Source: Microbulbifer taiwanensis (lineage in GTDB: Bacteria; Pseudomonadota; Gammaproteobacteria; Pseudomonadales; Cellvibrionaceae). Taken from it: a DNA stretch of 64,000 nt. The stretch is taken from NCBI RefSeq assembly GCF_014904815.1, contig NZ_JACZFR010000009.1:62001-126000 (forward strand), written 5' to 3'. Below are positions 1 to 15,358 of the stretch, one piece after another. A program made the translations under genes and the position numbers. The notes under the pieces were generated by a model that was not told the origin of the DNA, did no database searches, and was given only the letters and a program-made list of their open reading frames with translations. Numbering within the stretch: the first letter of the stretch is position 1; each line of letters starts with the position of its first letter.

Positions 1-869
1 CCGAGGCCGGGCTCGAGGAAATCACCGAGATCTGGCACGTGGCCGCGGAGATGAGCTATTCCGCCCACAAGCTCGGGATCTCCTTCGATACCAACGTTGG
101 CAACAGCGCGCGCCTGTATGAAACCGCCGTGCGCTGCGCGCCCAATTGTCGCCGCTATTACTACGTCTCCACCGCCTACGTGGCGGGCATGGCCGGCGGC
201 GCGGTGCGCGAGGAGCTGCACACGAAAAGCCGCATGGTCAACACCTACCAGGTCACCAAGTGGAGCACCGAGCAGTCGCTGCACCTGCTGCAACAGCGCC
301 ACGGGCTGCCGGTCACCATCTTCCGCCCGACCGTGGTCGTGGGCCATCGCCACACCGGCTGGGCGCACCGCAATGGCTTCGGTTTTTATATGTTCCAGGA
401 CGCGATGATCGCCATCGCCGCCGCCGGCCACCGGGAACTAACCGTGGACCTGCTGCCGGACGCACGCCCGGACCTGGTCTCCATCGACCAGCTCTGCGCC
501 GACGCCTGCTCCCTGACCCTGCGCCAGTCCACGGACGGCGAATTCGAGGTGTTCCACAGCAGCGGCGGCATCGGTGTGCGCATGGAGGAAATGGTGCGCA
601 TCTGGGGCCAGGTTGCCGGTATCGACGCACGCCTGGGCGCCCCCACCACCGCGCTGGAGCAGAAATTCGATCGCGCCGTGGGCCCCAACCGTCCCTTCGC
701 CCGCACCGAATGGCAGTTCGACCGCTCGCGCCTCGACGCCGCCATCGGCCTGGCCCAGCCGGTACAGCCACTGTCCCGCGATGAGCTGTTCGCCCTGTGC
801 CGCTGGTACGCCGAGGAGTCCACCAGTGTCGTCGCTAGCACCGCACCGGCAGTGGCCGAGGCCAGCTGA
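1..869 (+). CDS. Thioester/acyl-CoA reductase-like extended SDR, 3' part only
   Basis: The reading frame is open from the window edge (first full codon at base 3) and ends at TGA 867-869, so this is the C-terminal part of a larger protein. The residues read through the edge resemble the core of NAD-binding_4 (male-sterility/Lys2-type) reductases. There is a YVSTAYV strand and then the catalytic YxxxK as YQVTK in NTYQVTKW. Family members reduce an acyl thioester (CoA or carrier-bound) to an aldehyde or alcohol with NAD(P)H. It could be a stand-alone fatty acyl-CoA reductase or the terminal reductase domain of a modular synthetase; the missing N terminus would decide. The next gene starts 9 bases later, so it belongs to the same transcription unit. 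Confidence 0.8.
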   Translation, partial: EAGLEEITEIWHVAAEMSYSAHKLGISFDTNVGNSARLYETAVRCAPNCRRYYYVSTAYVAGMAGGAVREELHTKSRMVNTYQVTKWSTEQSLHLLQQRHGLPVTIFRPTVVVGHRHTGWAHRNGFGFYMFQDAMIAIAAAGHRELTVDLLPDARPDLVSIDQLCADACSLTLRQSTDGEFEVFHSSGGIGVRMEEMVRIWGQVAGIDARLGAPTTALEQKFDRAVGPNRPFARTEWQFDRSRLDAAIGLAQPVQPLSRDELFALCRWYAEESTSVVASTAPAVAEAS

Positions 870-878
870 GGAAACGCC

Positions 879-2288
879 GTGACCAGTCTCACCACATCAG
901 CGCCCGCCGCCACATCCGAATCCAGCGCATCTCCTATTGACGCCCTGGCCGAGGTATTCGTGCACCTGGGGGAGCTGGCCAACGTCAACACCAACCAGAT
1001 ACTGATCGTCAGTGGCCGCCTGGATCCCCGCGCGCTGGAGAAGGCGGTGGCGCGCGCGGTAGCGCAAATACCGCTGCTGCGCAGCCGTCCGCAGGGTGGC
1101 CAGTTGCGTCCATTCGACACCGCCGAGACCCGCTGGGTGGAGCACCTGGAGTATGCGGCGCCCTGCGACTTCAACGATGTCGCCTTCCGCCAGCTGTTGA
1201 TGAACTTCAGCTCTGCGCGTCGGTTGCGCTGGCGCGACCGGCCGCCACTGCAGCTGCTGCTGGTTACTGGCAACGGCGGGCACAATTCCTGTGTCTACCT
1301 CAGCAGCCACCACGGTGTCGCCGATGCGCGCAGCGACTGCCTGCTGCTGCGCGCCATCATCGAGCACTACGCCCATATCACCGGCGTGCCAGGTACCGCG
1401 GCACCCGGCGGCGAACTGCCCTTCGCGCCGCTGGCGCAGATACGCCCGCAGTGGTACCGACCACTGGCGCGCGGGCACCGCTGGCTGCGCGCGCTCGGCA
1501 GCGTCGCCGCCGACCTGCTGCGCCGCGACAGCGGATTTCCGGTGCAGCTGCAGGGACAGCGCTGGGAGGGCCGCAGCGCAGACCCCGGTATCGGGCAGCT
1601 GGATTTTTTCCAGAGCCCGCTGCCGCGGGCGCTGGAGGAGCGGCTGGCGCCGGCGGCCAAGGGCGCCGGTGTGACGGTCAATACACTGCTGTGCGCGGCG
1701 CTGGCGCGACTGATGGAAGCCACGGGCAACTATCGCAGCGGCCAGTTGCGCATCACCTGCGCGGTGAGCCTGCGGCGCCTGATCGAGCGGACCTACGACC
1801 GCAGTTTCCGCAACTACCTGGTGCCGAGCAGTATCCGCCTCAAGGCCGGCCAGGAGACTCCCGCGCTGCTGCGCAACCTGCACAAGGCCTTCGGCCGCGC
1901 GCGCAGTGACCGGCAGCTAGGCACAGAGCTGGGGCGCCTGGAAACCCTGCTGCCGCTGCTGCGCCTGAAACCCCTGCGCGGCCCGGCCCGCAGCCTGCTG
2001 AACCGCTGCCAGGGTACCAACGCCTGCTATTCCAATCCCGGGCGTATCGAGGAGGACTTCACATCCTTCGGTTCAGACGCACACCGCACCCAGAGCTATG
2101 TGGGCTTCGGCTGCCTGGTGCCCCCCTACGATTTCATTCTGTACACCCCCACCGTCAACGGCCGCATGCAGCTGGACCTGGTCTACCGCCGCGCGGCCTT
2201 CAGCGATATCCACAGAGAGTTCGCCGCACCCTTTCTCGAAGCCCTGCGACAGCTGCTGGACACGCTGCAAAACCCGCCCCGGAGATGA
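879..2288 (+). CDS. Condensation-domain-like acyltransferase, stand-alone
   Basis: The 469-residue protein starts at GTG 879 behind a GAGGA-type ribosome site. It has one recognisable hallmark, HHGVADA at residues 144-150. This matches the HHxxxDG active site of NRPS condensation domains and the related WES/PapA/alcohol acyltransferase group, with Ala in place of the final Gly. H145 would be the catalytic base. The length fits one complete two-lobe condensation fold with no adenylation or carrier domain attached. It probably joins an activated acyl group to an amine or alcohol, on free or CoA/ACP-bound substrates. It sits between the reductase and an AMP ligase, with 7 bases to the next start. 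Substrates cannot be read from the sequence. Confidence 0.8.
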   Translation: MTSLTTSAPAATSESSASPIDALAEVFVHLGELANVNTNQILIVSGRLDPRALEKAVARAVAQIPLLRSRPQGGQLRPFDTAETRWVEHLEYAAPCDFNDVAFRQLLMNFSSARRLRWRDRPPLQLLLVTGNGGHNSCVYLSSHHGVADARSDCLLLRAIIEHYAHITGVPGTAAPGGELPFAPLAQIRPQWYRPLARGHRWLRALGSVAADLLRRDSGFPVQLQGQRWEGRSADPGIGQLDFFQSPLPRALEERLAPAAKGAGVTVNTLLCAALARLMEATGNYRSGQLRITCAVSLRRLIERTYDRSFRNYLVPSSIRLKAGQETPALLRNLHKAFGRARSDRQLGTELGRLETLLPLLRLKPLRGPARSLLNRCQGTNACYSNPGRIEEDFTSFGSDAHRTQSYVGFGCLVPPYDFILYTPTVNGRMQLDLVYRRAAFSDIHREFAAPFLEALRQLLDTLQNPPRR

Positions 2289-2295
2289 TGCCAAG

Positions 2296-4074
2296 ATGAT
2301 GAGCTACGCAATTGCCACCGCCGTCACACTGCTGTTCGCCTACCTGCTGTTTATCGCCGCGCGCCTCGGCTATTTCGGCCGCCTGTCGCTGCTGGCCAGC
2401 TGGGATGACCGCGTGGACCGCGCACTGGAATTCGCCGCGCGCCGCCACGGCGACCGCGAGCTGGTGGAACTGGCCCAGCCCCTGGCCTGGACCGGCGAAC
2501 AGCACTGGAGTGCGCCGCTGATCCTGGAAACCGCGAAGAAACTGTCGTCCTGCTGGCACCACCTGGGTGTCGGCGAGGGCGACCGGGTGGCGATCTACAA
2601 GGCCAACCAGTTCGACTACTTCCTGTTTTCCGTGGCGGCCCTGCGCATCGGTGCCATCGCCGTACCCATCAACGTCAACGTGGCCGCAGAGACAGCCGCC
2701 GGCTATATGCAGCGCCTGGGTGTGCGACTGCTGGTCAGCGATGGGGGCGGCTGGCAGAAACTGGCAGCGCTGGACGAAGGGCAGCTGCCGGACTGCCTGA
2801 GCCAGGTGATACTCACCGACACGCCCCAGCACGCCGCCGGCGCGCGGGTACACAGTCTCGCCGCGCTGCTGAACGAGCCACTGCCGGCGGCTCCGGAGCG
2901 CCGCCGCGGCGGCGAGGATCCCCTCTACATAGTGCACACCTCCGGCACTACCGGCGTGCCCAAGGGCGTGATCCTCAAGCAGGAGGGCATAGCCCAGTCG
3001 CTGCGCTCCATAGTGCTGTTCAACCCGGTATCCACCCGCGACCTGGCCTGTTTCGCCCTGCCACTGAACCACCAGGTCTCGCACCTGTACCTGCATGGGG
3101 TGCTGCTGATGGGCGTGCGCTGTATCGTCGACGGCGAACTGTCGGCGCCGGCACTGGTCCGCCAGCTGCGCGAGCGCAAGCCGAGCGTCTTCTTCGGCTT
3201 CCCGATCACCTATACCCGCCTGCTCGAGGCCGGCGTTACCGAACAGCCACTGGACAGTGTGCGCATCTGGGGCACCACCGCGGACGCCAGTCACGAGGTG
3301 CAGCAGCGGGCCCTGATTCCCCACGGCTCCTTCTTTACCCGCCTCGGCATCCCGGTCAAGGGTTCCCTGTTCGTCGACGGGCTCGGCTCCAGCGAAGTGG
3401 GCATCGCCGCCCTGCTGCGCATTGCCACCCCCTGGACCAGGCACTTCGGCCGCCGCGTCGGCCGCCGCACGCCACTGGGCCCCGAGATCAAGATTGCCGA
3501 CGCCGACGGCACGCCGGTGGCCAAGGGGGAAGTCGGGCGGCTGATGATCAAGGGCAAGAGTATGTTCGGCGGCTACTGGAATGCCCACGACGTCTTCTAT
3601 TCCGCCACCCGCGACGGCTGGTGGTTCACCGGCGACATGATGCGCGAGGCCGACGACGGCGAACTGCTGCACCTGGACCGCGAAGTGGACGTGATCCACA
3701 CCGCCCGCGGGCCCATGTACACGCTGCCGCTGGAGGAGATAGTGCTGAAGCAGGACGGCGTGCTCGATACCTGCGTGTTCGGTGTGCGCCCGGACGCGGA
3801 CGGCCCCGAAGTCCCCGCCGCGGTGGTGGCACCGCGGGCCAGGGCGCGTATCCCGGACGCGGAAACCCTGCGACGCACGCTCAACACGCTGCTGCCCGAG
3901 GGACACCAACTGGTTCACCTGTGGCTGATCGACTGGGCGGATTTCCCCATCGGCGCCACCGGCAAGACCCTGAAGCGGCGCCTGCGCGAAGACTACAACG
4001 CCCTGCTGCAGTTGCAGCGGGACTCCAACCCGGAGGCGGCGCCATGCGAAGCCAGCGCACTGCAGCCCGCCTGA
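2296..4074 (+). CDS. Membrane-anchored AMP-dependent acyl ligase
   Basis: I chose the tandem ATG at 2296 because the frame upstream overlaps the previous gene and GGAG lies at 2281-2284. The 592-residue product begins with a hydrophobic helix (about residues 4-24), unusual for this family. The ANL core follows: the P-loop signature with HTSGTTGVPKG around residues 213-224, the GDxx hinge in WWFTGDMM, and the A10 lysine in GATGKTLKRR near residue 556. It should activate a carboxylic acid with ATP to an acyl-AMP and load it on CoA or a carrier. The anchor suggests the acid is a lipid-like chain handled at the inner membrane. Its 3' end overlaps the next start by 31 bases, showing tight operon packing. 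Confidence 0.85.
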   Translation: MMSYAIATAVTLLFAYLLFIAARLGYFGRLSLLASWDDRVDRALEFAARRHGDRELVELAQPLAWTGEQHWSAPLILETAKKLSSCWHHLGVGEGDRVAIYKANQFDYFLFSVAALRIGAIAVPINVNVAAETAAGYMQRLGVRLLVSDGGGWQKLAALDEGQLPDCLSQVILTDTPQHAAGARVHSLAALLNEPLPAAPERRRGGEDPLYIVHTSGTTGVPKGVILKQEGIAQSLRSIVLFNPVSTRDLACFALPLNHQVSHLYLHGVLLMGVRCIVDGELSAPALVRQLRERKPSVFFGFPITYTRLLEAGVTEQPLDSVRIWGTTADASHEVQQRALIPHGSFFTRLGIPVKGSLFVDGLGSSEVGIAALLRIATPWTRHFGRRVGRRTPLGPEIKIADADGTPVAKGEVGRLMIKGKSMFGGYWNAHDVFYSATRDGWWFTGDMMREADDGELLHLDREVDVIHTARGPMYTLPLEEIVLKQDGVLDTCVFGVRPDADGPEVPAAVVAPRARARIPDAETLRRTLNTLLPEGHQLVHLWLIDWADFPIGATGKTLKRRLREDYNALLQLQRDSNPEAAPCEASALQPA

Positions 4075-5324
4075 CACCCGCACTGGTCGCGGTCCTCTGC
4101 GGCGGCCTAGGTGCCGGGCCCGCGACCGGCGACGACGACTGGGCCTTCGATACCAGCGGCGCACAGGAAACCTGGAGCAGCGACTACGAGTTGACCCTGC
4201 AGCTGATCCGCGAGCGCGAGCAGCTGTTCGCCCCCCTGGCCGCGTCCTGGGACGGCGGCGACCGCGCCGGGCGCAGTGCCGCCGAACTGCGCCTGGACCT
4301 GCAGCTGCGTTGCAGCGCGTCGCCCTGTAAAGGCACCCGCCTGGTGCTGAAGCCGCGCCTGGCCCTGGGCGACGACGACCGTCCGGCGGCCATGCCGGAT
4401 CCGCAGCCGGACTGGCTCGCCGAGGGCTACCTGCTGCGCGAGTTCGACGGCGGCACCCGCGTCGGCGCCGGCAAGCGTCTGCTCGGCTGGGGGCCCTCGC
4501 TGCTCTACAGCCCCAGCAACCGCCTCTTCCCCGACAACGGCGCCGTGACCCCGCGGCGCGATGTGCCCGGCAAGCCAATGGCCTTCGCCAGCACCGATCT
4601 CTCGCCCCGCGGCCGCGCCAACCTGCTGTTGGCGGACCCGCGCCTGGATGAGGTGGCTGGCCTGGACAGCGGCGGCGCCTTCAGCCTGGCCCGCGCCGAG
4701 TGGAACTGGGTCGAGGGGCGCATCGCCACCCTCGGCGCCGTGGCCGCGGGCGGCGGCGGTTTTCGCCCTTATGTCGGCGGCTACTACCAGCTGGGCCTGG
4801 GCGAAGCCTGGACCCTCGGCTTCGAGGCGGCGACATCGCGCGGCTACGCGGACACCGTCGCCGGCGCCCCGGCGCTGGCGCAAAACGAAGAGCGCTGGCG
4901 CTGGGACGGTGTTTTCAACCTGCGCTACGGCGCCGCCTCCGGAGCCGAGACAGGCCTGGAGCTGATCTACAACGGTTACGCCCAGAGCGATGCCGAGCGG
5001 CTGGACCCGGCACTCGCCGCCCTGCCCTCGGCCGGGCGCGGCCCGTCGCGCAACCGCCCGCTGCACCCCTTCGTGCAGCGCCGCTATGCGCTGCTGCAGA
5101 CCACCTGGCCGAAGCTGTTCGGCGACCGCCGCTGGGGCCTGACCGCGCGACTGCTGCAGGGACTCGACGGCGCCAGCACAAGTGGATTTACCGAGCTGTC
5201 CTACAGCCCCGGCGACGCCGCCACCGTCTACCTGGGATTGTCCCGCAGCCGCTCAGGCAAAGCGCTGGAAATGAGCCAGCCGGTTACCCGCAGCGCCTAC
5301 CTGGCCCTGGATGCCTTTTTCTGA
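4044..5324 (+). CDS. Outer-membrane beta-barrel protein of export cluster
   Basis: ATG 4044 has GGAGG at 4032-4036 and lies inside the end of the ligase gene. The 426-residue product opens with a positively charged, hydrophobic signal peptide (about residues 1-29, cleavage near GPATGDD). It continues with alternating aromatic and polar strands rich in Gly and Tyr, and ends in Phe-Phe, the typical C-terminal signature of Bam-assembled barrels. I do not recognise a named family. Its place before an ABC ATPase and two FtsX permeases suggests it is the outer-membrane acceptor or pore for the product moved by those proteins. That role is inferred from context only. Confidence 0.7.
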   Translation: MRSQRTAARLTPALVAVLCGGLGAGPATGDDDWAFDTSGAQETWSSDYELTLQLIREREQLFAPLAASWDGGDRAGRSAAELRLDLQLRCSASPCKGTRLVLKPRLALGDDDRPAAMPDPQPDWLAEGYLLREFDGGTRVGAGKRLLGWGPSLLYSPSNRLFPDNGAVTPRRDVPGKPMAFASTDLSPRGRANLLLADPRLDEVAGLDSGGAFSLARAEWNWVEGRIATLGAVAAGGGGFRPYVGGYYQLGLGEAWTLGFEAATSRGYADTVAGAPALAQNEERWRWDGVFNLRYGAASGAETGLELIYNGYAQSDAERLDPALAALPSAGRGPSRNRPLHPFVQRRYALLQTTWPKLFGDRRWGLTARLLQGLDGASTSGFTELSYSPGDAATVYLGLSRSRSGKALEMSQPVTRSAYLALDAFF

Positions 5325-5367
5325 TGACCCTGTTTCCGATGAATACGCGAATAAGAGGAGAGAAGAG

Positions 5368-6105
5368 ATGAACCTGGTCGAATTCGAATCCGTCACCAAG
5401 CGCTACCGGCTCGGCGAGGTGGAAGTCACCGCCCTCGACAGCGTCGACTTCGCCGTGCGCCGCGGCGACTTTGTCGCCATCACCGGCCCCAGCGGCAGCG
5501 GCAAGACCACCATGCTGAACCTGATCGGCTGCCTGGACAGCCCCACGTCCGGCGAGATCCGTGTGGCCGGGCAGCCGGTGAGCGGCCTCGACGACCACGC
5601 CCTGGACCAGCTGCGCAGCCGCAGCTACGGCATCATTTTCCAGAACTTCAACCTGGTGCCGGTACTGACCGCGCTGGAAAACGTGATGCTGCCGCTGTAC
5701 CTGCACGGGCTGTCGAAGGACGAGCGCCAGCACCGCGCCTCCGCGGCACTCGCAGCCGTGAGCCTGACCCGATTCGCCGATTTCCGCCCGGACCAGATGT
5801 CCGGCGGCCAGCGCCAGCGCGTGGCGGTGGCCCGCGCCCTGGTCACAGAGCCCAAGCTGATCCTCGCCGACGAGCCCACCGCCAGTCTCGATACCGCCAG
5901 CGCGCTGTCGCTGGTGGACCTGATGAAAGAGCTGAACACGGAACGGCGCGTGACCTTCGTCTTCTCGACCCACGACCAGCGCCTGCTGCAACACGTCAGC
6001 CGCGTTGTCGAACTGCGCGATGGCCAGCTGTCCGGTGACGATGCGCCCGGTGCCGGCGTGACCGGCGCCGCCCTGGTACAGACCGGCGACAGCGAGGTGG
6101 CGTGA
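5368..6105 (+). CDS. ABC transporter ATP-binding protein, MacB/LolD type
   Basis: Start at ATG 5368, preceded by AAGAGGAG at 5353-5360. An upstream ATG at 5311 overlaps the previous gene and lacks such a site. The 245-residue ATPase has Walker A GPSGSGKT at 40-47, the signature MSGGQRQRVAVARAL, Walker B LILADEPT and the switch histidine in STHDQR. Length and motifs fit the MacB/LolD/FtsE subgroup, which drives FtsX-type permeases rather than forming a classical channel. The stop overlaps the following ATG by one base (TGATG), so translation is coupled to the fused permease. It presumably powers both FtsX proteins that follow. Confidence 0.95.
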   Translation: MNLVEFESVTKRYRLGEVEVTALDSVDFAVRRGDFVAITGPSGSGKTTMLNLIGCLDSPTSGEIRVAGQPVSGLDDHALDQLRSRSYGIIFQNFNLVPVLTALENVMLPLYLHGLSKDERQHRASAALAAVSLTRFADFRPDQMSGGQRQRVAVARALVTEPKLILADEPTASLDTASALSLVDLMKELNTERRVTFVFSTHDQRLLQHVSRVVELRDGQLSGDDAPGAGVTGAALVQTGDSEVA

Positions 6106-8120
6106 TGTGGTCCATGGCATTTCGCAATCTCTACCGGGACCGCCGGCGCACCCTGGCCACCGTCATTGCGGTGGCCGCGGGCCTGTTCGCGGTGCTGATG
6201 TTCCTCGCCTATATCCGCTTCGTCGAGAGCTCCCTGGCCGCGGTGGTCATCTACCGCGACGCCAATGCCCACGTACAGGTGTATCGCGTGGACGGGCCTG
6301 AGCAGCTAGCGGCGACACCGGCGCAGTACTCCCTGGACAGTGCCGACCAGGCGCTGATTCACCGCGCACTGCCTGAACTGCCGCACTTCCTGCGCGCCTC
6401 CAACCAGTTGGTGGGTGTCGGTGTGGTGCAGGCGGACGCCGACAGCGCCGTCTTCCTGGCCCGCGGTATAGACCCGGAGTTCGAAGCCGCGCTGCAACAG
6501 CACAGCCCGCTGGCCGCGCCGCCCCCGCCGGTGGATGGGTTGCTGCTCACCACCCAGCTGCAGGACCTGCTCGGCTACCCGGCGCAACACAGCGACCTGC
6601 AGCTGTTCGGCGCCTCCTATGCCAACCGCATGAACGCTATCGAGGCGCCGTTGGTGGGCGATTTCTCCACCGGCATTGAGGCCATCGAAGACAAGGGTCT
6701 CAAGGCGCCGCTGGCACTGCTGCAGTCGCTGTACGACACCGACGCCGTCTCGCGGGTGGTGGTGCAGCTGGACGACCGCATGCACAGCGGGAATTTCCGC
6801 GCACAGCTGGCCGCCGAGCTGGAGCGGCAGGCGCCCGGGCGCTTCGAGGTCACCACCTGGGACCACCCGCAGATTGGCCAGCTGTACACCAGCTTTATGG
6901 GTTTCTTCAATATGGTGTTCGCCTTCACCGGTATCGTCGTGTTCACCATCGCCCTGACCACCATCCAGCACACGGTGGCAATGAACGTGGCCGACCGCAC
7001 CCGCGAGATCGGCATGCTGCGCTCGCTCGGATTCGGCCGCGGGCGCATCGCCGGGCTGTTCGTGCGCGAGAGCCTGCTCACGACACTGGCGGCGGCACTG
7101 GTCGCCGCGGCCCTGGCCTATGCGGTTATCGCCGCCCTGGCCCTGGCGGGGGTGGAGACCCAACTGCCGCGCATCGCCGAACCGGCGCCGCTGGCGCTGC
7201 AACTGCCGCCCCTCTGGGCTGTGATCGCCATCGCCTGTGCCGGTGCCGGCATCGCCCTGGGGGCACTGCTCACCGCGCGCAAGCGGGTCGGCGGCGAAGT
7301 GCGCCCCGGGCGCCGCGGCGTGCCGCTGACCCAGCTGCTGGCCGCCGCCGGCTGCCTGCTGCTGGCCGTGCCACTGCTATCCCCCGCCCAGGCACAGACG
7401 CCCCCGCCCATGGAGGAAGTCGCTGCCTCCCGGTCCCCGGACGAGGAGACGATGCGCGCCTGGCTCAAGCAGGCGGATCTGGCCCGCGGCGGCTGGGGCA
7501 GCTACCAGTGGAAACTCCGTATCCACACCGAGGATCCCGCCGGCGCCACCGATACCGACTACGACATCGCCGTGCGCGACGGCCGCGCCCTGGCGATGAC
7601 CACGGCACCACGGCGCTACCGTGGCGAGAAGATTCTGATCGCCTCCCGCGCCATGTGGTACGCCAAGCCCGGGCTGCGCAAGCCGGTCAGCATCAGCCCG
7701 CAGCAGCGTCTGGTGGGCGAGGCGGCCAACGGCGATATCGCCGCCACCCAGTACGCCCGCGATTACGCGCCGGCGTACCTGGGCAGCGCAGACCTGGACG
7801 GCACCTCCTGCCACAAGCTGAAGCTGACCGCCGCCAGCGACAGTGCCACCTACGAATCCATCATCTACTACCTCGACAAGCGCAACCGCCTGGCAGTGCG
7901 CGCGGAGTTCCTGACCGCCAGCGGCATGCCGCTCAAGGTGGCCCACTTCGAGTACGACAACCGGGTGCAGATCGATGGCGAGACGCGCCCCTTCGTGTCG
8001 CACATGAAGATCGTCAACGCCAACTTTCCCGAACGCTACAGCCTGCTCGAGTACCGGCGGGTGGCTCCGGCCGATCCGCCGGACAGCCTGTTCACCGTCG
8101 ACACACTGATGACCCTTTAG
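6105..8120 (+). CDS. FtsX-type permease fused to LolA-like lipid-carrier domain
   Basis: Starts at ATG 6105, coupled by TGATG to the ATPase gene, 671 residues. Residues 1 to about 402 form an FtsX/MacB-type permease. It has an N-terminal helix after a basic stretch, a periplasmic core, and C-terminal helices with the family's TREIGMLRSLGFGR loop. Around residues 410-430 comes another hydrophobic stretch that looks like a former signal peptide, ending PAQAQ. Residues about 440-671 resemble the LolA_like 'outer membrane lipoprotein-sorting' family (PF17131). The extra helix would place the carrier domain in the periplasm next to the permease. Such domains are usually separate proteins. The fusion is in frame without an obvious error, but a lost stop codon cannot be excluded from sequence alone. 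Confidence 0.85.
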   Translation: MWSMAFRNLYRDRRRTLATVIAVAAGLFAVLMFLAYIRFVESSLAAVVIYRDANAHVQVYRVDGPEQLAATPAQYSLDSADQALIHRALPELPHFLRASNQLVGVGVVQADADSAVFLARGIDPEFEAALQQHSPLAAPPPPVDGLLLTTQLQDLLGYPAQHSDLQLFGASYANRMNAIEAPLVGDFSTGIEAIEDKGLKAPLALLQSLYDTDAVSRVVVQLDDRMHSGNFRAQLAAELERQAPGRFEVTTWDHPQIGQLYTSFMGFFNMVFAFTGIVVFTIALTTIQHTVAMNVADRTREIGMLRSLGFGRGRIAGLFVRESLLTTLAAALVAAALAYAVIAALALAGVETQLPRIAEPAPLALQLPPLWAVIAIACAGAGIALGALLTARKRVGGEVRPGRRGVPLTQLLAAAGCLLLAVPLLSPAQAQTPPPMEEVAASRSPDEETMRAWLKQADLARGGWGSYQWKLRIHTEDPAGATDTDYDIAVRDGRALAMTTAPRRYRGEKILIASRAMWYAKPGLRKPVSISPQQRLVGEAANGDIAATQYARDYAPAYLGSADLDGTSCHKLKLTAASDSATYESIIYYLDKRNRLAVRAEFLTASGMPLKVAHFEYDNRVQIDGETRPFVSHMKIVNANFPERYSLLEYRRVAPADPPDSLFTVDTLMTL

Positions 8121-8133: not shown

Positions 8134-9456
8134 ATGACTGTCAAACTGTTACTGACGATGTCCCTGCGCAACCTGTGGCGGCAGGGGCGCAAATCCCTCG
8201 GCACCTTCGTGGTGATGAGCATATCGGTGCTGGCCCTGTGCCTGCTGTCCGGCTACATGCAATCCAATGTCGAACTGATCCGCGACGCCTTTATGCGCTG
8301 GGGGGCCCGCGGCCACCTGGTGATCGAGAGACCGGCGTCGGAGCTGGCGCGTCAGGTCGAGGGCGCCGGCCAGCTACCGCTGACCGCGGCGCTGCAGCAG
8401 CGCATCGACGGGGTGCTGGCGCAAGAGCCGCAGCTGGTGGCCAGCGCACGGGTGCTGCGCATCTCCGGCATGGTATCGAACGCCTACGTCAGCTCCATCT
8501 TCGCCGGCATAGGGCAGGACGTGGAGCAGATCCGCGCGATCAAGGGTCCCGCCTACGAGTACGACGTGGTGGCCGGCACACCGCTGTGGATGGAGACGCG
8601 CCCGCAGCCGCTGGTACTGGGCCAGGGCCTGGCCGCCATCCTCGGCTGCGCGGTACCGGAAGTGGGCTTTGCCCCGCTGCAGCCCGGCGAAACCCCCAAG
8701 TCGCGCCCCATCGACTGCCCGCCCGGCCCGCTGGAACTGACCGCGACCACCCGCGGCACGGCGCGCGTCAACGCCGTGCGCGCCCAACCCACCGGCATCA
8801 TGGACTGGGGCATCAAGGAGATTAACGATCGCCTGGTGGTGATGCCGATGGCCGACGCCCAGGCGCTGCTCAATACCACCGACGTCAGCGAGTACCACCT
8901 GCTGCTAGAGGACGGCGCCGACGCCACCGCCGCACGCAGCCGTATCGCCGCGGCCCTGGCGGAAGCGGGTCTCGACGATGTGGAGGTGTTCCTCTGGTCC
9001 GACCGCGCCGCTTTCTACCAACAGGTCAAGGCGGTGCTCGGTGGCTTCCTCAACTTCATCGCCCTGATCGCCTGCGCCATCGGCTTTACCAGCCTGCTGA
9101 ACGCCAGCTACATGAACTTTTCCCAGCGCGCGCGGGAGTTCGCGACCCTGCGCAGCCTCGGTTTCACGCGCCGCTTCGTGCTGGCGCTGGCCGCGCTGGA
9201 AAACAGCTGGCTGGCTCTCGGTGCGGCGCTACTGGGTATCGGCACCACCGCTGCCATCGTGTGGTCGGTGCGCGCCGCGCAGATCATGTGGACGCCACCC
9301 GGGTCCAGCAACGCGGTCCCCGTGGACCTGGCCTGGGTGGCGCCGACATACGTGGCCGCGGTAGTAGGTGTTGTCGTCATCGCAGCCTTCGCCAGCTCTA
9401 TCCCAACCCGCAAGATTCTGAGACGGCCGATTCGCGCTGTGCTCTCCGACGCGTAA
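8134..9456 (+). CDS. FtsX-type ABC permease, second subunit
   Basis: ATG 8134 follows TAGGAG by a short spacer, 13 bases after the previous stop. The 440-residue protein has the MacB/LolC-E layout. One N-terminal helix follows a basic MSLRNLWRQGRKS segment, then comes a large periplasmic domain, then three C-terminal helices. The first of these is followed by the conserved cytoplasmic loop REFATLRSLGFTRR. No carrier domain is attached. With the fused permease it would form a LolCE-like heterodimer over an ATPase dimer. No MacA/HlyD-type adaptor is encoded nearby, so a Lol-like lipid extraction mode fits better than MacAB-TolC efflux. Confidence 0.92.
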   Translation: MTVKLLLTMSLRNLWRQGRKSLGTFVVMSISVLALCLLSGYMQSNVELIRDAFMRWGARGHLVIERPASELARQVEGAGQLPLTAALQQRIDGVLAQEPQLVASARVLRISGMVSNAYVSSIFAGIGQDVEQIRAIKGPAYEYDVVAGTPLWMETRPQPLVLGQGLAAILGCAVPEVGFAPLQPGETPKSRPIDCPPGPLELTATTRGTARVNAVRAQPTGIMDWGIKEINDRLVVMPMADAQALLNTTDVSEYHLLLEDGADATAARSRIAAALAEAGLDDVEVFLWSDRAAFYQQVKAVLGGFLNFIALIACAIGFTSLLNASYMNFSQRAREFATLRSLGFTRRFVLALAALENSWLALGAALLGIGTTAAIVWSVRAAQIMWTPPGSSNAVPVDLAWVAPTYVAAVVGVVVIAAFASSIPTRKILRRPIRAVLSDA

Positions 9457-9487: not shown

Positions 9488-10309
9488 ATGACTGAAATGG
9501 CACGCAAAAGGCGCTGGAAGCGCTTCGTAGACCGGGAATCCGGCAAGGCATTGGTTGTACCGCTAGACCACGGTCTCACCATGGGCCCCATTCCCGGTAT
9601 CGGCCGACCGCAGGACATATTGCGCTGGCTCAGTGCCGAGGTGGCCACCGGCGTGGTGTTGCACAAGGGCTTCGCTGAGCGCCTCGGCGGCGCCCCCGGC
9701 TGCGGCCTGATGATCCACCTGAACGGCTCGCTCACTGTCGACGCGCAGCCGGACCTGAAACAGCTGGTGACCTCAGTGGAAGCCGCGGTGCGCCTCGGCG
9801 CCGACGCCGTGTCGATTCAGACCAATTTTTCCGCCGTGACCGCGTCCCACAACCTGCGCCTGATCGGGCGGGTCGTGGACGAAGCCCACGCCTGGGGGCT
9901 GCCGGTGCTGACCATGGTGTACGACAAGTCCCGCGACGTCGAGCGCGGGCTGGAGCGCATGCGTCACTTTATGCGCGCCGCCGTCGAGCTGGGCGTGGAC
10001 ACCCTCAAGGTGGCGGCGCCGGCACAGCTGGAGCGGATGCCGGAACTGCTCGACGGTGTCCAGGAGCACACCCCGGTGCTGCTGGCCGGCGGCGCCCTGG
10101 CCGACGAGAGAGACCTGCTCGAGCTGGCGGCGGCCGTCGTGCGCCACGGCGCCGGCGGTATCTGCGTGGGCCGCAATGTGTTCCAGCGCGCCGCGCCGGC
10201 AGTGACCCTGAAGCGCCTGCTGCAGGTCTTCCGCAGCGGTGCCAGTGCCGAACTCAACTTTGCCCGCCCGCTCGCGCAGCCAGAGCGGGAAGCCGAGATG
10301 GCGGTGTGA
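9488..10309 (+). CDS. DhnA-type class I aldolase (ADH synthase/LsrF-like)
   Basis: ATG 9488 lies behind AAAGGAGAAA. The 273-residue TIM barrel has the Schiff-base lysine in DTLKVAAP (K174), an aspartate in VPLDHG (D27) and a tyrosine in LTMVYDKSRD (Y145). From memory, archaeal 2-amino-3,7-dideoxyheptulosonate synthase MJ0400 uses D33, Y153 and K184, with almost the same spacing. Relatives include GriI, which condenses aspartate semialdehyde with dihydroxyacetone phosphate, and LsrF, a thiolase. No GriH-like partner is in the window. It likely makes or breaks a carbon-carbon bond for a polar building block of the cluster product. The precise substrates are unknown. Confidence 0.85.
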   Translation: MTEMARKRRWKRFVDRESGKALVVPLDHGLTMGPIPGIGRPQDILRWLSAEVATGVVLHKGFAERLGGAPGCGLMIHLNGSLTVDAQPDLKQLVTSVEAAVRLGADAVSIQTNFSAVTASHNLRLIGRVVDEAHAWGLPVLTMVYDKSRDVERGLERMRHFMRAAVELGVDTLKVAAPAQLERMPELLDGVQEHTPVLLAGGALADERDLLELAAAVVRHGAGGICVGRNVFQRAAPAVTLKRLLQVFRSGASAELNFARPLAQPEREAEMAV

Positions 10310-10353
10310 ATTCCGCAACCTCAAGCCATGCAGTCAAACAGGGAGAGACAACC

Positions 10354-11982
10354 GTGATACCTATCGATTCCAGTCCAGGATGCGTCGACCTTTTGATCGA
10401 CCGCCATGTCCGCGCCGGCCGCGGCGACCACACTGCGCTGCTGGAGAGTGGCACCGGCGACCGCCGCAGTCTCAGTTATCGCGAACTGCAGCAGCGCACC
10501 CTGGCCGTTGCACAGGAACTGAATGTGCGCCTGGCCGGCAGCCGCAGCCAGCAGCGCATCGCCCTGGTCGGCTCGGCGACCCTGGAAAATATCGTCTACT
10601 GGCTGGGCGCCATGCGCGCCGGCCATCTGCCGTTTACCGTGCACCCGGGCCTGCCCCTGGATCACTACGAGGGCCTCTGGGAGGATTTTGACCCGGCACT
10701 GGTGCTGGCGGACAGGACCGCCGCGCCGGTCGATGCGGCCGAGGACATGACTACCGTGGAAGCGCTGGCGGCGGCCGCGGCGAAGGGACCACTGGCGGAA
10801 GTCAGCGATCTGGCCGCCGACCTGGACCGGCGCCCCGCGCTGGTACTGGCCACCTCCGGCTCCACCGGGCGGCCGAAGCTGTGCGTGCACAGCCACCGCG
10901 CCTTCTGGGCTTTCGAGCGCAATGTCAGTCGCGCGTCATGGGACATCCGCCCGGGCGACCGGGTACTGGCCAGCACCGGACCCTTCTTTTCCTTTGGCCT
11001 GCAGGGACTGCATGTGCCACTGAGCCGCGGCGCCACCGCGGTGACGCTACCGGAATGGCAGCAGCACACGGACTTCCTGGACGTGATCGAGGCCGAATCG
11101 GTCAGTGTCTTCCTGGCCGTACCCACCCTCTACCACCTGTTGATGTCGCGCGCCGCCCGCCCCTACCGGCTGGAGGCACTGCGCCTGTCCCTGTCCGCCG
11201 GCGAGCGACTGCCACCGGTCATCCGCGAACGCTGGCAGGCCTGGAGCGGCTCGCAGATGCTGGATTCCGTCGGCACCACCGAGACCTTTGCACCCTATTT
11301 ATCGGAGGTGGTGGCCGCAGGCGCTTTATCCGAAGTGGCCGCAGGCGCTCTATCCGAAGTGCCCGCGGACGCTTTGTCCGCGACGGCCGCTGGCGCCGCG
11401 CCCGAAGTCACTGTGACACCGGCGCTGCAGCGCGTGGGCGGCTTCCACTATACGGAAACGCCCCACGGCGGCGGCGGTGCCTTCTCCCTGTCGATATCGG
11501 GCGGCTGCCTGATGCTCGGCTACCTGGCGCCGGCCAGCGGCGGCCTGTTACAGGAGGCGGTCACGCCCTTCGATACCCGCGACCTGTTCAACCGCGACGA
11601 GGCCGGCCTGCATTTTGTCTCCCGCGACAGCGAGCGCATCAAGGTGGCCGGGCACTGGGTCAGCCCCCAGGAGCTGGAGGAATTCCTGCTTGCAGACCGG
11701 CGGGTGATCAAGGCGGCGGCGCTGCCGCTGGAAACCGCCGAGGGGCTGACGCGACTGCGCGCCTATGTGGTGGCGGACACCCGCGGCTACTCGTCCGCGG
11801 CACTGGTGAACGACCTGATGAAGCGTATCCGCGAACAGCTGCACCCGCGCGCGCTGCGCCCGGACCGCATCGAGCTGGTCGAGGATATCGCCACCACCCC
11901 CAGCGGCAAGATACGCCGGCAGGAACTGCGCGCCCTGGTGGGGCAGCCGGTGGCCAGGGCCGGTGCGGTGCTGGCCCGCTAG
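10354..11982 (+). CDS. AMP-dependent ligase, benzoate-CoA-ligase-like, with 24-bp repeat insert
   Basis: GTG 10354 is preferred because GGGAGA lies at 10341-10346; an in-frame start at 10306 overlaps the aldolase gene. The 542-residue ANL enzyme carries LATSGSTGRPKLCVHSH (P-loop), SVGTTETF (A5), a TRDLF hinge, RIKVAGHWVSP and the A10 lysine in TPSGKIRRQE. The order resembles benzoate- or aryl-CoA ligases more than long-chain acyl ligases. Directly after the A5 motif there is an Ala-rich insert built of four 8-residue units (VAAGALSE and variants), encoded by 24-bp tandem repeats at 11311-11406. It is the second ligase of the cluster, so two different acids are probably activated. Confidence 0.85.
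   Translation: MIPIDSSPGCVDLLIDRHVRAGRGDHTALLESGTGDRRSLSYRELQQRTLAVAQELNVRLAGSRSQQRIALVGSATLENIVYWLGAMRAGHLPFTVHPGLPLDHYEGLWEDFDPALVLADRTAAPVDAAEDMTTVEALAAAAAKGPLAEVSDLAADLDRRPALVLATSGSTGRPKLCVHSHRAFWAFERNVSRASWDIRPGDRVLASTGPFFSFGLQGLHVPLSRGATAVTLPEWQQHTDFLDVIEAESVSVFLAVPTLYHLLMSRAARPYRLEALRLSLSAGERLPPVIRERWQAWSGSQMLDSVGTTETFAPYLSEVVAAGALSEVAAGALSEVPADALSATAAGAAPEVTVTPALQRVGGFHYTETPHGGGGAFSLSISGGCLMLGYLAPASGGLLQEAVTPFDTRDLFNRDEAGLHFVSRDSERIKVAGHWVSPQELEEFLLADRRVIKAAALPLETAEGLTRLRAYVVADTRGYSSAALVNDLMKRIREQLHPRALRPDRIELVEDIATTPSGKIRRQELRALVGQPVARAGAVLAR
11311..11406 (+). repeat. Four tandem 24-bp units inside AMP ligase gene
   Basis: Units at 11311-11334 and 11335-11358 differ at a single base. 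The unit at 11359-11382 is more diverged and contains a small hairpin (CGCGGAC with GTCCGCG). The unit at 11383-11406 is the most degenerate. Each encodes eight residues, so frame is kept. The grading of identity looks like a slipped-strand expansion. The insert lies in a surface position after the A5 motif, so it may be tolerated rather than functional. Confidence 0.85.
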
Positions 11983-12138: not shown

Positions 12139-12855
12139 CTAGGGCCGGATCAGCCCGATGGACAGGGCGCGGGCCACGGCCTGGCGCCGGTTGGAGACTC
12201 CCAGCTTATGAATGATGTTGCGGAAATGGAAATTCACCGTCGCCTCGGAGCAACTGAGGATGCGCGAGATCTCCCAGGAGGTCTTGCCCACCGCCGCCCA
12301 GTGCAGGCACTCGCCTTCGCGCGGTGTCAGGCCGATATCCGCCGCCGCGTCGACCTCCTCGATGCGGGCGATCGCCTCATAGGCGTAGGAGGCCAGCAGC
12401 TGGATGGTGGGCATTGTCTCGGTCAGCCAGGACTCCAGGCGCGTATTGAACGAGGCGCCGTTGGCCACCGAGATCATCATCGCCCGGTTGTGGCGGGCAC
12501 CGCGCAGGGCCGTGGCCACACCGGTGGCGATACCGTGGGCGGCGGACTCCTCGTACAGCTCACAGGCCTCGCCGGGAAAGTGCGCCCGGTGCCAGATCAT
12601 CGGTACCGGAGACTGCCGGCAGTGGCGCACCACCGGGTCGCGACCAACCCACTGCAGGCGGCTGTAGCGTTCCACGCAGTCGCGCGGGTAATTGGTCTGT
12701 ACACAGTGGCGGGCGCCCTCGGGGGCGACGGGGTTTTCGAGGCCGATCAGGTAATAGTCGAATCCTATGGCACTGACGGATCGCTGGATGCCGTCCTTCA
12801 CCTGGTCAATGGTCTGCGCGGACAACAGGTCAGGCAGGGCCCGAATCACTTCCAT
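12139..12855 (-). CDS. LuxR-family quorum-sensing-type regulator, solo
   Basis: I placed the start at ATG 12855 (MEVIRALPD). Upstream in-frame sequence is Cys/Ser-rich and unlike the family. The resulting 238 residues is the usual LuxR length. The N-terminal autoinducer-binding domain aligns by eye to LasR (NYP...Y...RDPVV...MIW...G), and the C-terminal GerE-type helix-turn-helix (LTPREGECLHWAAVGKTSWEI) is intact. Of the six classical ligand-pocket residues W57-Y61-D70-P71-W85-G113 (TraR numbering), the first is Cys here and the rest are kept. No luxI gene is in the window. It faces the biosynthetic operon and is divergent from the diiron enzyme gene, so it probably controls the cluster. Confidence 0.9.
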   Translation of the reverse strand: MEVIRALPDLLSAQTIDQVKDGIQRSVSAIGFDYYLIGLENPVAPEGARHCVQTNYPRDCVERYSRLQWVGRDPVVRHCRQSPVPMIWHRAHFPGEACELYEESAAHGIATGVATALRGARHNRAMMISVANGASFNTRLESWLTETMPTIQLLASYAYEAIARIEEVDAAADIGLTPREGECLHWAAVGKTSWEISRILSCSEATVNFHFRNIIHKLGVSNRRQAVARALSIGLIRP

Positions 12856-13087: not shown

Positions 13088-13813
13088 ATGGAAATGCAAC
13101 TTGAACTGCTCGAAGCCAGCAAGAGCGCGCTGATTGAGCGCCTGCGCTCACACCCCTTCCTGCGCCGCTGTCGCGAGGGTGCGGTTGAGCTGGATGAACT
13201 GAAAGTGTTCCTGGCCCAGCAGGGACTCTACAGCACCTACTTCACCCGCTACCTGTGCGCGATGATGGCCAACCTGCCCGGCAACGATGAGGTGATGGCG
13301 CTGGCGGAAAATCTGTTTGAAGAGCTGGGCCTGGAGCCGGACAGCCCCCAGCCCCACCACCTGGTCTACCGCTATATGCTGCAAAGCTTCGGGGTGCGCC
13401 TCGAGGACGCCCGCCCCCTGGCCGGCACCAGCCAGCTGATCGACAGCATGTTCCGGCACTGCCGCGACAGCAGGCCCAGCGCCGGCCTGGGCGCCCTCTG
13501 CCTCGGCGCCGAGGCACTGGTACCGGCGCTCTACACCGACATAGTGGCCGGCTTCCGCGCCTGTGGTGTCGCCGACAAGGAAATTGAGTTTTTCCTCATG
13601 CATATCGAGTGCGACGATGGCCACGCAGAAACCATCCGCGACATCATGGTGGATATCGCCACCCTGGACCCAGGGCAGATCGACATCATGCTCGGGACTG
13701 GCAGTGAGCTGGTGGATGCGCGCATGCGTTTCTTCGACTCCATCGAAGAGGCCTACCGCGAGACGCTGCACCAGCCGGTGACTGCCGCCGAGCCCGAAGC
13801 CATTCCCGCCTGA
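13088..13813 (+). CDS. Heme-oxygenase-like diiron enzyme (HDO superfamily)
   Basis: ATG 13088 has AAGGAG at 13072-13077; a GTG at 13067 would place that site inside the gene. The 241-residue all-helical protein carries a full set of candidate metal ligands: E83 (or E79), H90, E142, H172, D176 and H179. The last three keep the H-x3-D-x2-H spacing known from CADD and SznF. HDO enzymes activate O2 for N-oxygenation, C-C cleavage or desaturation (SznF, BesC, UndA). Lysine 152, which CADD needs for self-sacrificing aminobenzoate formation, is not seen at the matching place. It opens a co-directional trio with the class II aldolase and cytochrome b-like gene, divergent from luxR. Confidence 0.85.
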   Translation: MEMQLELLEASKSALIERLRSHPFLRRCREGAVELDELKVFLAQQGLYSTYFTRYLCAMMANLPGNDEVMALAENLFEELGLEPDSPQPHHLVYRYMLQSFGVRLEDARPLAGTSQLIDSMFRHCRDSRPSAGLGALCLGAEALVPALYTDIVAGFRACGVADKEIEFFLMHIECDDGHAETIRDIMVDIATLDPGQIDIMLGTGSELVDARMRFFDSIEEAYRETLHQPVTAAEPEAIPA

Positions 13814-13832
13814 AGCGCCGGAGGAGAATACA

Positions 13833-14645
13833 TTGACGGAGAAAATGTCCGGGGGTGAAACCCTATCGATGGAAAAGGACGAGCTGGTGCATCGCGCGCA
13901 GGACCAGATGCGCCGGCACCTGGAGGCGCCCGACTGGTCCCTGCGCGAGAAGGTCGCGCTCACCTGCCACATACTCTTCGCGCAGGGACACGACTCGGGT
14001 CTCGCTGGCCAGATCACCGCACGCGCGCCGGCGCCGGGCAACTACTACACCCAGCGCCTGGGGCTCGGCTTCGACGAGATCAGTGCGTCCAACCTGCTCA
14101 CTGTCAACGAGGACTTGGAAGTGCTGTCCGGCGACGGCATGGCCAACCCGGCCAACCGTTTCCACTCGTGGATCTACCGCGCGCGACCGGACGTGCGCTG
14201 CATAGTGCATACGCACCCGCTGCACATCTCGGCGCTGTCGATGCTGGGGCGGCCGCTCAAGGTTTCGCACATGGACACCTGTCCATTACACGGGGAGGTC
14301 GCCTTCCTGGAGGAGTGGCCCGGGGTGCCGGTGGGCAATGGTGAGGGGGAGATTATCGCCGCCACACTGGGGGACAAACGCGCGGCATTGCTCGCCCACC
14401 ACGGCCTGGTAATTGCCTGCCGCTCCGTGGAGGAAGCCTGCGTGCTGGCGATTCAGTGCGAGCGCGCCGCGCGCCTGCAACTGCTGGCCGAGTCGGCAGG
14501 CCAGGTGCGCGATATCGATCCGCAGCTGGCCCGCGAGGCCCACGACTGGGTGCTGCAGGAAAAGCGCACCCAGGCCACTTTCGCCTACTTTGCCCGCCGA
14601 GCACTGCGGGCCCTGCCGGCGGGGGGCGTGGACCCGCTGGGCTGA
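13833..14645 (+). CDS. Class II aldolase/adducin-family protein
   Basis: TTG 13833 is the likely start because GGAGGAG lies at 13820-13826; ATG 13845 or 13869 are alternatives. The protein of about 270 residues has the FucA/AraD/MtnB-type fold. The zinc-binding HTHP is in CIVHTHPLHIS, a later His pair is in LLAHHGLVIA, and the N-terminal Gly-rich phosphate loop is changed (GHDSGLAGQITAR). Members are metal-dependent aldolases, epimerases or dehydratases of small sugar phosphates or hydroxy acids. It lies 19 bases after the diiron enzyme gene. A second aldolase in one cluster supports a carbohydrate-like or polyol building block. Confidence 0.85.
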   Translation: MTEKMSGGETLSMEKDELVHRAQDQMRRHLEAPDWSLREKVALTCHILFAQGHDSGLAGQITARAPAPGNYYTQRLGLGFDEISASNLLTVNEDLEVLSGDGMANPANRFHSWIYRARPDVRCIVHTHPLHISALSMLGRPLKVSHMDTCPLHGEVAFLEEWPGVPVGNGEGEIIAATLGDKRAALLAHHGLVIACRSVEEACVLAIQCERAARLQLLAESAGQVRDIDPQLAREAHDWVLQEKRTQATFAYFARRALRALPAGGVDPLG

Positions 14646-14725
14646 TTGCGGGAAATCCCGGCGGGGTCGGGCCGGCCACACACGGCGGCTCGACCCACAG
14701 ATGGCCAGATGTAGAGGTAATTTCT

Positions 14726-15358
14726 ATGTTGCACCGGTTGCACCGGCTATCAGCGCTGCTGATCAGCCTGTATATCGTCTTCCACCTCGCCAATCACCTC
14801 GCGGCGCTGGGCGGGGTCGAGGCGCATATCCGCTTTATGGACGGCTACCGCAACGTCTATCGCAACTGGCTGGTGGAGCCGCTGCTGCTGACCTGTGTGC
14901 TCTTTCAGGTAGCCTCGGGTATTACCTTTATCATCCGCCGCCGCGGCCGGCGGCACGGTTTCTTCGACCGCGCCCAGGCTGCCTCCGGCGCCTACCTGGC
15001 CTTCTTCCTGCTTTTCCACCTGGGCGCGGTGCTCTACGGCCGCCATTTTCAGGGCCTGGATACCAACTTCTATTTCGCCGCCGCGGGCCTGCAAGTGGGC
15101 GCCTACCCGGCCTTTTTCATGCCCTACTACGCCCTCGCGGTGCTGGCCTATTTCACCCACCTGGCCTGTGGCCTGCGCTGGCTGCTGCGCCGGCGCCTGC
15201 CGCCGCAGGCACTGGACCGCGCCGCCACCGGCACCATGGCACTCGGCCTGCTGCTGGCAGTCACCATAGTGGCGACTTTCAGCGGCGCCCTCTACCCGGT
15301 ACATCTTCCGGCGGAATACTGCCTGGGTGACTGCGCTCCCGGCAGCCCGGTTCGTTAA
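14726..15358 (+). CDS. Succinate-dehydrogenase cytochrome b-like membrane protein
   Basis: ATG 14726 has GAGG at 14714-14717. The 210-residue protein shows five hydrophobic helices, with histidines in helix 1 (VFHLANHL), helix 3 (LFHLGAVL) and helix 4 (YFTHLACGL). This is the layout of SdhC/FrdC-type diheme cytochrome b subunits. No flavoprotein or iron-sulfur subunit gene is present, so it is not an ordinary complex II. It may pass electrons from the quinone pool, perhaps to the diiron enzyme two genes upstream. That partnership is a guess from position. Confidence 0.65.
   Translation: MLHRLHRLSALLISLYIVFHLANHLAALGGVEAHIRFMDGYRNVYRNWLVEPLLLTCVLFQVASGITFIIRRRGRRHGFFDRAQAASGAYLAFFLLFHLGAVLYGRHFQGLDTNFYFAAAGLQVGAYPAFFMPYYALAVLAYFTHLACGLRWLLRRRLPPQALDRAATGTMALGLLLAVTIVATFSGALYPVHLPAEYCLGDCAPGSPVR

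Follow-up and report, generated by a model that had tools for sequence, protein, structure and literature searches.

The window analysed here is a 64,000-nucleotide stretch of the 4.8 Mb Microbulbifer taiwanensis genome (contig C42:62001-126000). At its left end sits a biosynthetic gene cluster, which we read as a candidate diazo pathway. It combines genes for making an aminohydroxybenzoate ring, two adenosine monophosphate (AMP) ligases, an export set, and a haem-oxygenase-like diiron oxygenase (HDO) next to a relative of pyruvic oxime dioxygenase (POD). The cluster extends past the window, and its first gene is cut by the window edge. Hence, a sequence-only reading that had the cluster start at position 1 needs correction: the frame of the reductase gene RED begins 304 bases upstream, and a gene for a 3-dehydroquinate (DHQ) synthase II directly precedes it. 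Otherwise, domain searches, a structural model and its porin folds place every gene class listed by that reading where it had been put. To the right of the cluster is the gene for elongation factor P (EF-P), followed by a class II tRNA-synthetase-like gene, which we take to be EpmA-like. The G+C content is 0.66-0.70 across the first 12 kb of the window, compared with 0.56-0.64 past 20 kb; because of this difference, positions 1-12000 fit acquired DNA. The genes, which adjoin or overlap, are as follows (window coordinates, unless prefixed by a locus or contig).

L010:5570-6697, equal to C42:60570-61697 (approximate, homologous part): DHQS, DHQ synthase II/GriH-like protein (PF01959, 1e-89)
1..869 (L010:6697-7869), + strand: RED, NAD(P)-dependent acyl/thioester reductase-like short-chain dehydrogenase/reductase (SDR), 390-aa frame (PF07993, 2.4e-23)
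879..2288, + strand: COND, free-standing condensation-fold acyltransferase (PF00668, just above cut-off)
2296..4074, + strand: AMP1, membrane-anchored AMP ligase on the diazotase (AvaA6/Tri17) side of the ANL superfamily
4044..5324, + strand: OMB, predicted outer-membrane beta-barrel with a signal-peptide-like start (model, porin folds)
5311..6105, + strand: ATP-binding cassette (ABC) ATPase, true start possibly later (PF00005, 2e-33)
6102..8120, + strand: FTSL, FtsX-type permease with a C-terminal LolA-like domain at residues ~495-669 (PF02687, PF17131)
8134..9456, + strand: FTSX, second FtsX-type permease (PF02687, 6.6e-17)
9488..10309, + strand: DHNA, DhnA/GriI-type aldolase (PF01791; 2qjg, 1.3e-37)
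10306..11982, + strand: AMP2, soluble benzoate-CoA-ligase-like AMP ligase (TIGR02262, 1.9e-58, below cut-off)
12139..12855, - strand: LuxR-type regulator with an autoinducer-binding domain (PF03472, 1.9e-24; PF00196, 1.3e-19)
13088..13813, + strand: HDO, haem-oxygenase-like diiron oxygenase of the Haem_oxygenas_2 type (PF14518, 1.8e-21)
13833..14645, + strand: POD-like protein, class II aldolase fold, probable pyruvic oxime dioxygenase relative (8il8, 2.3e-72)
14726..15358, + strand: CYTB, Sdh_cyt-like membrane protein (PF01127, 2.4e-5, just below cut-off)

The pairing of DHNA with DHQS points strongly to the starting unit. In the account of the closoxazole pathway, a DhnA aldolase and a DHQ synthase II convert aspartate semialdehyde and dihydroxyacetone phosphate (DHAP) to 3-amino-4-hydroxybenzoate (3,4-AHBA) (PMC12118335). 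DHQS scores 306 bits with the general DHQ synthase II model, and 246 of 750 bits with the BagC/FevH model for 3,4-AHBA synthases (3.9e-73). DHNA scores 208 bits with NF005556 (1.4e-61) and 107 of 500 bits with NF041223, the BagB/FevI model (6.3e-31). Note that all four scores are below the curated cut-offs. An ordinary DHQ synthase is encoded separately, on contig C44, so the cluster enzyme is not needed for the shikimate pathway. DHQS is found upstream in all nine other genomes with the cluster, at 60-89% identity, and in none of three Microbulbifer genomes lacking it. We conclude that DHNA and DHQS very probably make 3,4-AHBA, or a close analogue. The small, aldolase-derived head group of the sequence-only reading can therefore be named as a 3,4-AHBA-type ring.

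The cluster is conserved. It occurs in 10 genomes from four genera, including the source, and in the nine others DHQS is followed by the reductase and condensation genes. Gene maps show the common order AMP1-barrel-ABC-FtsX/LolA-FtsX-DhnA-AMP2-(LuxR)-HDO in Microbulbifer thermotolerans, M. halophilus, four Chromobacterium species, Paludibacterium purpuratum and Paraburkholderia diazotrophica. In the latter, a cupin gene follows HDO, and there is no match to LuxR, POD or CYTB. The barrel, ABC and both FtsX genes are present in nine of the 10 genomes. Hence, the genes stay together in relatives, and the notion of a conserved biosynthetic unit that carries dedicated export genes holds up. In M. 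variabilis SaN7-12 (locus L022), the cluster is separated by a neighbouring gene from an HDO-POD pair that occupies the EF-P site; the barrel is unseen there because the locus begins within the ABC gene. The intervening gene (L022 1-12000) is weakly radical-SAM-like. In three other strains (L019-L021), the EF-P site holds the HDO-POD pair only, with no cluster. CYTB accompanies the cluster in Microbulbifer loci and in three of four Chromobacterium, and was not found in L026, L028 or L058. A DhnA gene is present in six of 48 Microbulbifer genomes, the source included. The paraben producer Microbulbifer A4B17 carries genes of the cluster, namely HDO and an AMP1 of the same type, and the closest named homologues of HDO are from Microbulbifer.

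Next to the LuxR gene lies HDO, whose start ATG is preceded by AAGGAG. Its predicted metal ligands (E86, H97, E149, H179, D183 and H186) are invariant in 25 of 25 sequences. We assign these roles by alignment to CADD and BesC, presuming the ligand positions in those enzymes. The HDO profile is nearest, weakly, to p-aminobenzoate (pABA) synthases and BesC. A CADD-type, self-sacrificing pABA synthase was ruled out; the sacrificed Tyr27 aligns with Leu32. At the settings used, no inverted repeat resembling a lux box was detected between LuxR and HDO.

The downstream protein has its best solved relatives in 8il8, 8ix6 and 8iqa (E 1e-70 to 1e-72). Fuculose aldolases are far behind, and NovR and TqaM, which also have class II aldolase folds, are more distant matches. 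The three structures are pyruvic oxime dioxygenases, Fe(II) enzymes that yield pyruvate and nitrite (PMC11841055). Compared with one of these, AfPOD, 117 of 245 aligned residues are identical (48%), as against 27% for E. coli FucA. All 15 HDO-linked copies keep the three Fe-binding His residues, Gln53, Phe103, His104, Glu164 and Glu229 (AfPOD numbering). Fourteen copies retain Lys8 and 12 retain Met19. Tyr233 is replaced by Trp in every copy, and Trp counts among the aromatic residues found at this position in PODs (PMC11841055). Note that most of the residues checked also occur in FucA; from the Fe-binding triad, Gln53, Phe103, His104 and Glu164, all except Gln53 are common to both. POD differs from FucA at Gln53 and at the aromatic residue, where FucA has Asn and Val, respectively, as well as in having the N-terminal Lys and Met and in lacking Glu73. 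The position of this catalytic FucA residue is Ala in all 15 copies, and a FucA-like aldolase was ruled out on these grounds. Judged by sequence, this protein of class II aldolase fold is probably a POD relative rather than an aldolase, and the second of the 'two unrelated aldolases' in the sequence-only reading resembles an oxime dioxygenase instead.

When named genomes were scanned with an alignment of HDO, 42 HDO loci were obtained. Because the scan used two peptide patterns, these lean to close relatives. POD adjoins HDO in 30 loci, a cupin does so in eight, neither in four and both in none. Across clusters with quite different partner enzymes, and in solitary pairs, HDO shares 49-78% identity and POD 57-84%. 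Such likeness, in differing clusters and alone, suggests a common small substrate. Where HDO and its partner are not solitary, their neighbours are of at least three kinds: 3,4-AHBA genes, a TrpEG-like set, or an AMP ligase plus a C45/AAT-type acyltransferase. The TrpEG-like set (chorismate enzyme, aminotransferase and benzoate-CoA-ligase-like gene) occurs in two Pseudoalteromonas, Rheinheimera, Alkalimonas and one metagenome-assembled genome. The acyltransferase setting occurs in Burkholderia and others, with ketosynthase or acyl carrier protein (ACP) genes in several. A search of plasmids with HDO gave one match, on a Burkholderia stagnalis plasmid.

Several of these loci have features of their own. 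A conserved Pseudoalteromonas/Rheinheimera/Alkalimonas cluster (L031, L036, L037, L041 and L042, ~1-11510) contains HDO and POD. Its other genes encode a weakly acyl-CoA-dehydrogenase-like protein, a class III aminotransferase and a GATase-chorismate enzyme; the benzoate-CoA-ligase-like protein has a 300-aa N-terminal extension. On the B. stagnalis plasmid (L071, 3180-23225), HDO-POD lies amid ketosynthase-like genes, ACPs, a second diiron oxygenase, a ferredoxin and a C45 family protein. In L050, L054 and L057, a small cupin replaces POD beside HDO, near 3,4-AHBA genes; an OsmC-like gene is close by in L050 (named) and L057 (by clustering). In L048 and L049, HDO is followed by a DHQ synthase II gene with no DhnA in the locus, and the neighbours include MatE, thioesterase and acyltransferase genes (named in L049).

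We turn to AMP1, the ligase that links these enzymes to diazotisation. At E<=1e-30, the PDB matches of AMP1 and of an AvaA6-like ligase (from L054) are identical: four sequences, of which two are Tri17, a nitrite-activating enzyme (PMC11705231). In a tree of 41 rows, the AMP1 family (16 rows) joins AvaA6-like rows (17) with support of 99/96, apart from eight other ligases. A D-x-x-H motif, chosen post hoc from the alignment, is present in 33 of 33 AMP1 and AvaA6-like rows and in none of the eight others. As the sequence-only reading had noticed, AMP1 looks membrane-anchored: it has an N-terminal hydrophobic helix, and such a helix is found in 14 of 16 AMP1-family rows and in none of 25 other rows (one with its N-terminus cut off).

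Gene association points the same way. Of the 42 HDO loci, 16 contain DhnA. Without exception, these 16 also encode DHQS and a member of the AMP1/AvaA6 ligase group (14 recognised by clustering, one as a fusion in L040, and one on the same contig in L022). POD is found in 11 of these loci and a cupin in five. The fusion, from Paludibacterium, is a single 801-aa frame in which an AvaA6-like ligase (312.7 bits; next model, 176.9) is joined to an HDO domain, and POD follows. Upstream are DHQS, DhnA, an AvaA7-like protein and a gene of the major facilitator superfamily (MFS). For the AvaA7-like protein, the diazo reductase model NF058621 is the only NCBIfam match at 1e-20 (77.8 of 400 bits). In L039, L046, L050 and L054, the AvaA6 model outscores every other model for the ligase. 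Taken together, these comparisons make it rather likely that AMP1 is a diazotase. No CreE/CreD pair, which would make nitrite from aspartate via nitrosuccinate, was found among the cluster genes scanned. At E<=1e-80, AMP1 was found in the source genome only (one of 369 in a class sample and one of 398 in a phylum sample, with up to three candidates scored per genome).

Searching plasmids with AMP1 identified five from Leisingera, at 35-38% identity. On one of these (L070, Leisingera sp. NJS201, 1823-21548), the AMP1-family ligase (36%) lies with chorismate-binding genes, aminotransferases, a LolA-like protein and MMPL. A formate/nitrite transporter, an acyl-homoserine lactone (AHL) synthase and LuxR are also encoded, and neither HDO nor POD has a match in the locus. 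The plasmid locus may encode a related system that uses nitrite but lacks HDO and POD.

Among the remaining proteins, RED matches TIGR01746 (3.4e-16, below cut-off). COND has a PapA5-like match far below cut-off; in Foldseek, its model (mean pLDDT, the predicted local distance difference test, of 69) matches SgcC5 and VibH, both free-standing, and the condensation domains of non-ribosomal peptide synthetases (NRPS). All 10 rows keep His145 and Asp149 of its HHxxxD motif. AMP2 falls outside the AMP1/diazotase group in the tree, and we propose that it may activate an aryl acid. CYTB could supply electrons. The regulator is a LuxR with an autoinducer-binding domain, as had been noted, but its description as a 'solo' is not established: a LuxI search gave no match in the genome, but none in control genomes either.

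For export, OMB has no Pfam or NCBIfam match. It models as a beta-barrel (mean pLDDT 60, eight sequences), and its best PDB folds are outer-membrane porins. The LolA-like domain of FTSL matches 3buu, of the LolA superfamily (7.7e-28), and the permease part matches LolF (6e-6). This gene content suggests delivery of a product to the outer membrane. Consistent with the sequence-only reading, the cluster genes scanned included neither a ketosynthase nor an MMPL exporter.

We propose, at just short of an even chance, that the cluster encodes a diazo pathway built on 3,4-AHBA, in which HDO and POD, standing in for CreE/CreD, supply the nitrite and a dedicated route exports the product. DHNA and DHQS would first make 3,4-AHBA from aspartate semialdehyde and DHAP, a step strongly supported by homology. 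HDO would then form an oxime by N-oxygenating a small amine (an alpha-amino acid being the likeliest substrate), and the POD-like Fe enzyme would cleave this oxime with O2 to give nitrite and a keto acid. AMP1, held at the inner membrane, would activate this nitrite with ATP and diazotise the ring amine, giving an o-diazophenol. For nitrite formation and diazotisation, we rely on homology, conserved residues, the gene fusion and co-occurrence. Next, AMP2, RED and COND might activate, reduce and couple the carboxyl side, or an acyl or alcohol partner. Finally, with LuxR as regulator, the lipophilic product might be moved to the outer membrane by the ABC-FtsX-FtsX/LolA unit and the barrel. These last two steps are suggested by gene content. 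The sequence-only interpretation, of an acylated product passed from inner to outer membrane, is partly supported as a whole; it had missed DHQS beyond the window edge, the link of HDO-POD to nitrite, and the relationship of AMP1 to diazotases.

A broader, more tentative claim, which we place somewhat below an even chance, is that HDO plus an oxime dioxygenase (or a small cupin) forms an unrecognised, mobile nitrous-acid cassette. It would feed AMP ligases that form N-N bonds, replace CreE/CreD and, in this cluster, serve a lipid-like o-diazophenol delivered to the outer membrane. The cassette would range across Pseudomonadota, with the cupin form in Myxococcota and Bdellovibrionota, and its POD would be borrowed from heterotrophic nitrification.

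Several observations weigh against the proposed diazo pathway. AMP1 scores 196.1 bits with the AvaA6 model NF058622 (cut-off 975) and 196.2 bits with the general acyl-CoA ligase model; since the two score equally, AMP1 cannot be named by model. Similarly, the AvaA6-like ligases of L039, L046, L050 and L054 score 238-526 bits, below the same cut-off, and the ligase tree has long branches and few outgroups. AfPOD Phe69 is Leu here, as in 13 of the 15 HDO-linked copies, and a Phe69Ala variant of AfPOD keeps only ~3-5% of kcat (PMC11841055). RED has no AvaA7-type match among the matches listed (25 of 29 NCBIfam families). The genome encodes five Lyase_1 proteins, none on contig C42; a CreD-like enzyme elsewhere in the genome is possible. 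Nor is HDO always tied to its partners. POD is missing beside HDO in L038, and both POD and cupin are missing in L048, L049 and L051. Three Microbulbifer genomes have a solitary HDO-POD pair with no AMP1-like ligase at E<=1e-30; there, the product of the pair is used otherwise, or the pair is a relic. Conversely, POD homologues occur apart from HDO. A. faecalis has three further homologues (PMC8629993), and none of four non-self homologues in the 369-genome class sample has an HDO or diazotase-like match nearby (HDO sought within 1.5 kb, and in 7-15 kb stretches).

The chief alternative, which we consider unlikely, is that the cluster products are esters or N-acylated forms of 3,4-AHBA, akin to bulbiferates or parabens. 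AMP1 and AMP2 would activate acids, RED would make an alcohol and COND would esterify. AMP1 would then be an acyl or aryl ligase, and HDO-POD would have a side function. In its favour, bulbiferates A and B, also from Microbulbifer, are 4-hydroxybenzoate esters with an acetamide ortho to the phenol, and so share the 3,4-AHBA skeleton (PMC11285056); they differ from the product proposed here in having an acetamide rather than a diazo group. In addition, the paraben producer A4B17 has HDO and AMP1 of this type, RED resembles acyl/thioester reductases, COND weakly resembles PapA5 and wax-ester enzymes, and HDO-POD occurs without the cluster. We know of no gene cluster assigned to bulbiferates. AMP ligases of the closoxazole pathway do join 3,4-AHBA units (PMC12118335). 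However, the nearest solved relatives of AMP1 include the nitrite-using Tri17, HDO is fused to such a ligase in L040, and, within the genus, DhnA is confined to the six genomes mentioned. Furthermore, the 4-hydroxybenzoate of A4B-17 is attributed to chorismate lyase, with a carboxylesterase proposed for the esterification (PMC6305291).

Alternatively, HDO and the POD-like enzyme might act on an aromatic or assembled product, installing for example an N-oxide, nitroso or oxime group, rather than on a free amino acid. No nitrite would then be made. HDOs carry out varied N-oxygenations, and the HDO-cupin loci recall SznF, whose cupin domain rearranges the HDO product (PMC13108848). The occurrence of HDO-POD beside chorismate-type aminobenzoate genes is also in keeping with this. 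We nevertheless regard it as quite unlikely: the pair is alike in differing clusters and alone, as for a common small substrate, and the POD-like sequence matches a nitrite-releasing enzyme. It is highly improbable, in our view, that the diazo group is transient and is removed by reduction, leaving a 4-hydroxybenzoate-type product. Such deamination has precedent in ava and cma (PMC11705231, PMC10777205), and L040 encodes an AvaA7-like reductase. Here, however, RED lacks an AvaA7 match among those listed, and no other SDR was found among the cluster genes scanned.

Compared with known systems, the proposed diazo pathway is closest to the clusters for cremeomycin (cre), avenalumic acid (ava) and p-coumaric acid (cma). 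These three use an ATP-dependent, nitrite-using AMP ligase of the AvaA6/CreM type, for which AMP1 is the candidate here, and ava and cma have a 3,4-AHBA-type head made by GriI/GriH-like enzymes. They differ in taking nitrite from CreE/CreD homologues (PMC11705231, PMC10777205), rather than from an HDO and POD-like pair as proposed here. The present cluster also has a membrane-anchored ligase and a dedicated ABC/LolA/barrel export set, and lacks a type II polyketide synthase. Among the three, the AvaA7-type diazo reductase is a feature of ava and cma only. AfPOD (8IL8), from heterotrophic nitrifiers, resembles the POD-like protein in Fe-binding and essential residues. Its context is different: the A. 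faecalis pod gene lies with glutathione S-transferase (GST)-like and transporter genes (PMC8629993), whereas here the partner is HDO, in a biosynthetic cluster. The closoxazole clusters (clx, pfx) make 3,4-AHBA with the same two enzyme types and use AMP ligases as joiners, together with a condensing amidohydrolase (PMC12118335) that is absent from the cluster genes scanned here. Amidohydrolase-like and AMP-binding-like genes do occur beside HDO and cupin in L054 and L057.

On the export side, LolCDE/LolF and MacB exporters likewise combine FtsX permeases with an ABC ATPase. Here, by contrast, a LolA-like domain is fused to a permease and a porin-like barrel is in the same cluster. Aryl polyene and flexirubin clusters share a LolA-like carrier and an outer-membrane destination with this one, but differ in that no ketosynthase, ACP or MMPL was found among the genes scanned. 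Diazotase clusters based on 3,4-AHBA are already known. Within the open-licence literature found, the nitrite cassette, anchored ligase and exporter are undescribed, and nothing contradicts the earlier statement that no described pathway has this set, the modules themselves being of known kinds.

HDO-POD is possibly a new nitrite route. In a survey of 72 ava-related clusters, about half had no known nitrite genes, and an alternative route to nitrous acid was one of three possible reasons given (PMC10777205). A two-gene nitrite cassette beside diazotase-type ligases, and once fused to one, would offer a specific candidate for this alternative. Note that the surveyed clusters are actinobacterial; those described here are not. 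If correct, our proposal would tie a nitrogen-cycle enzyme to natural product chemistry and provide a search handle for diazo compounds in Gram-negatives. A further gain would be an ABC exporter, fused to LolA, that handles a reactive small molecule.

Upstream of the cluster, L009:10944-13748 encodes a 934-aa protein with ~20 thrombospondin type 3 repeats.

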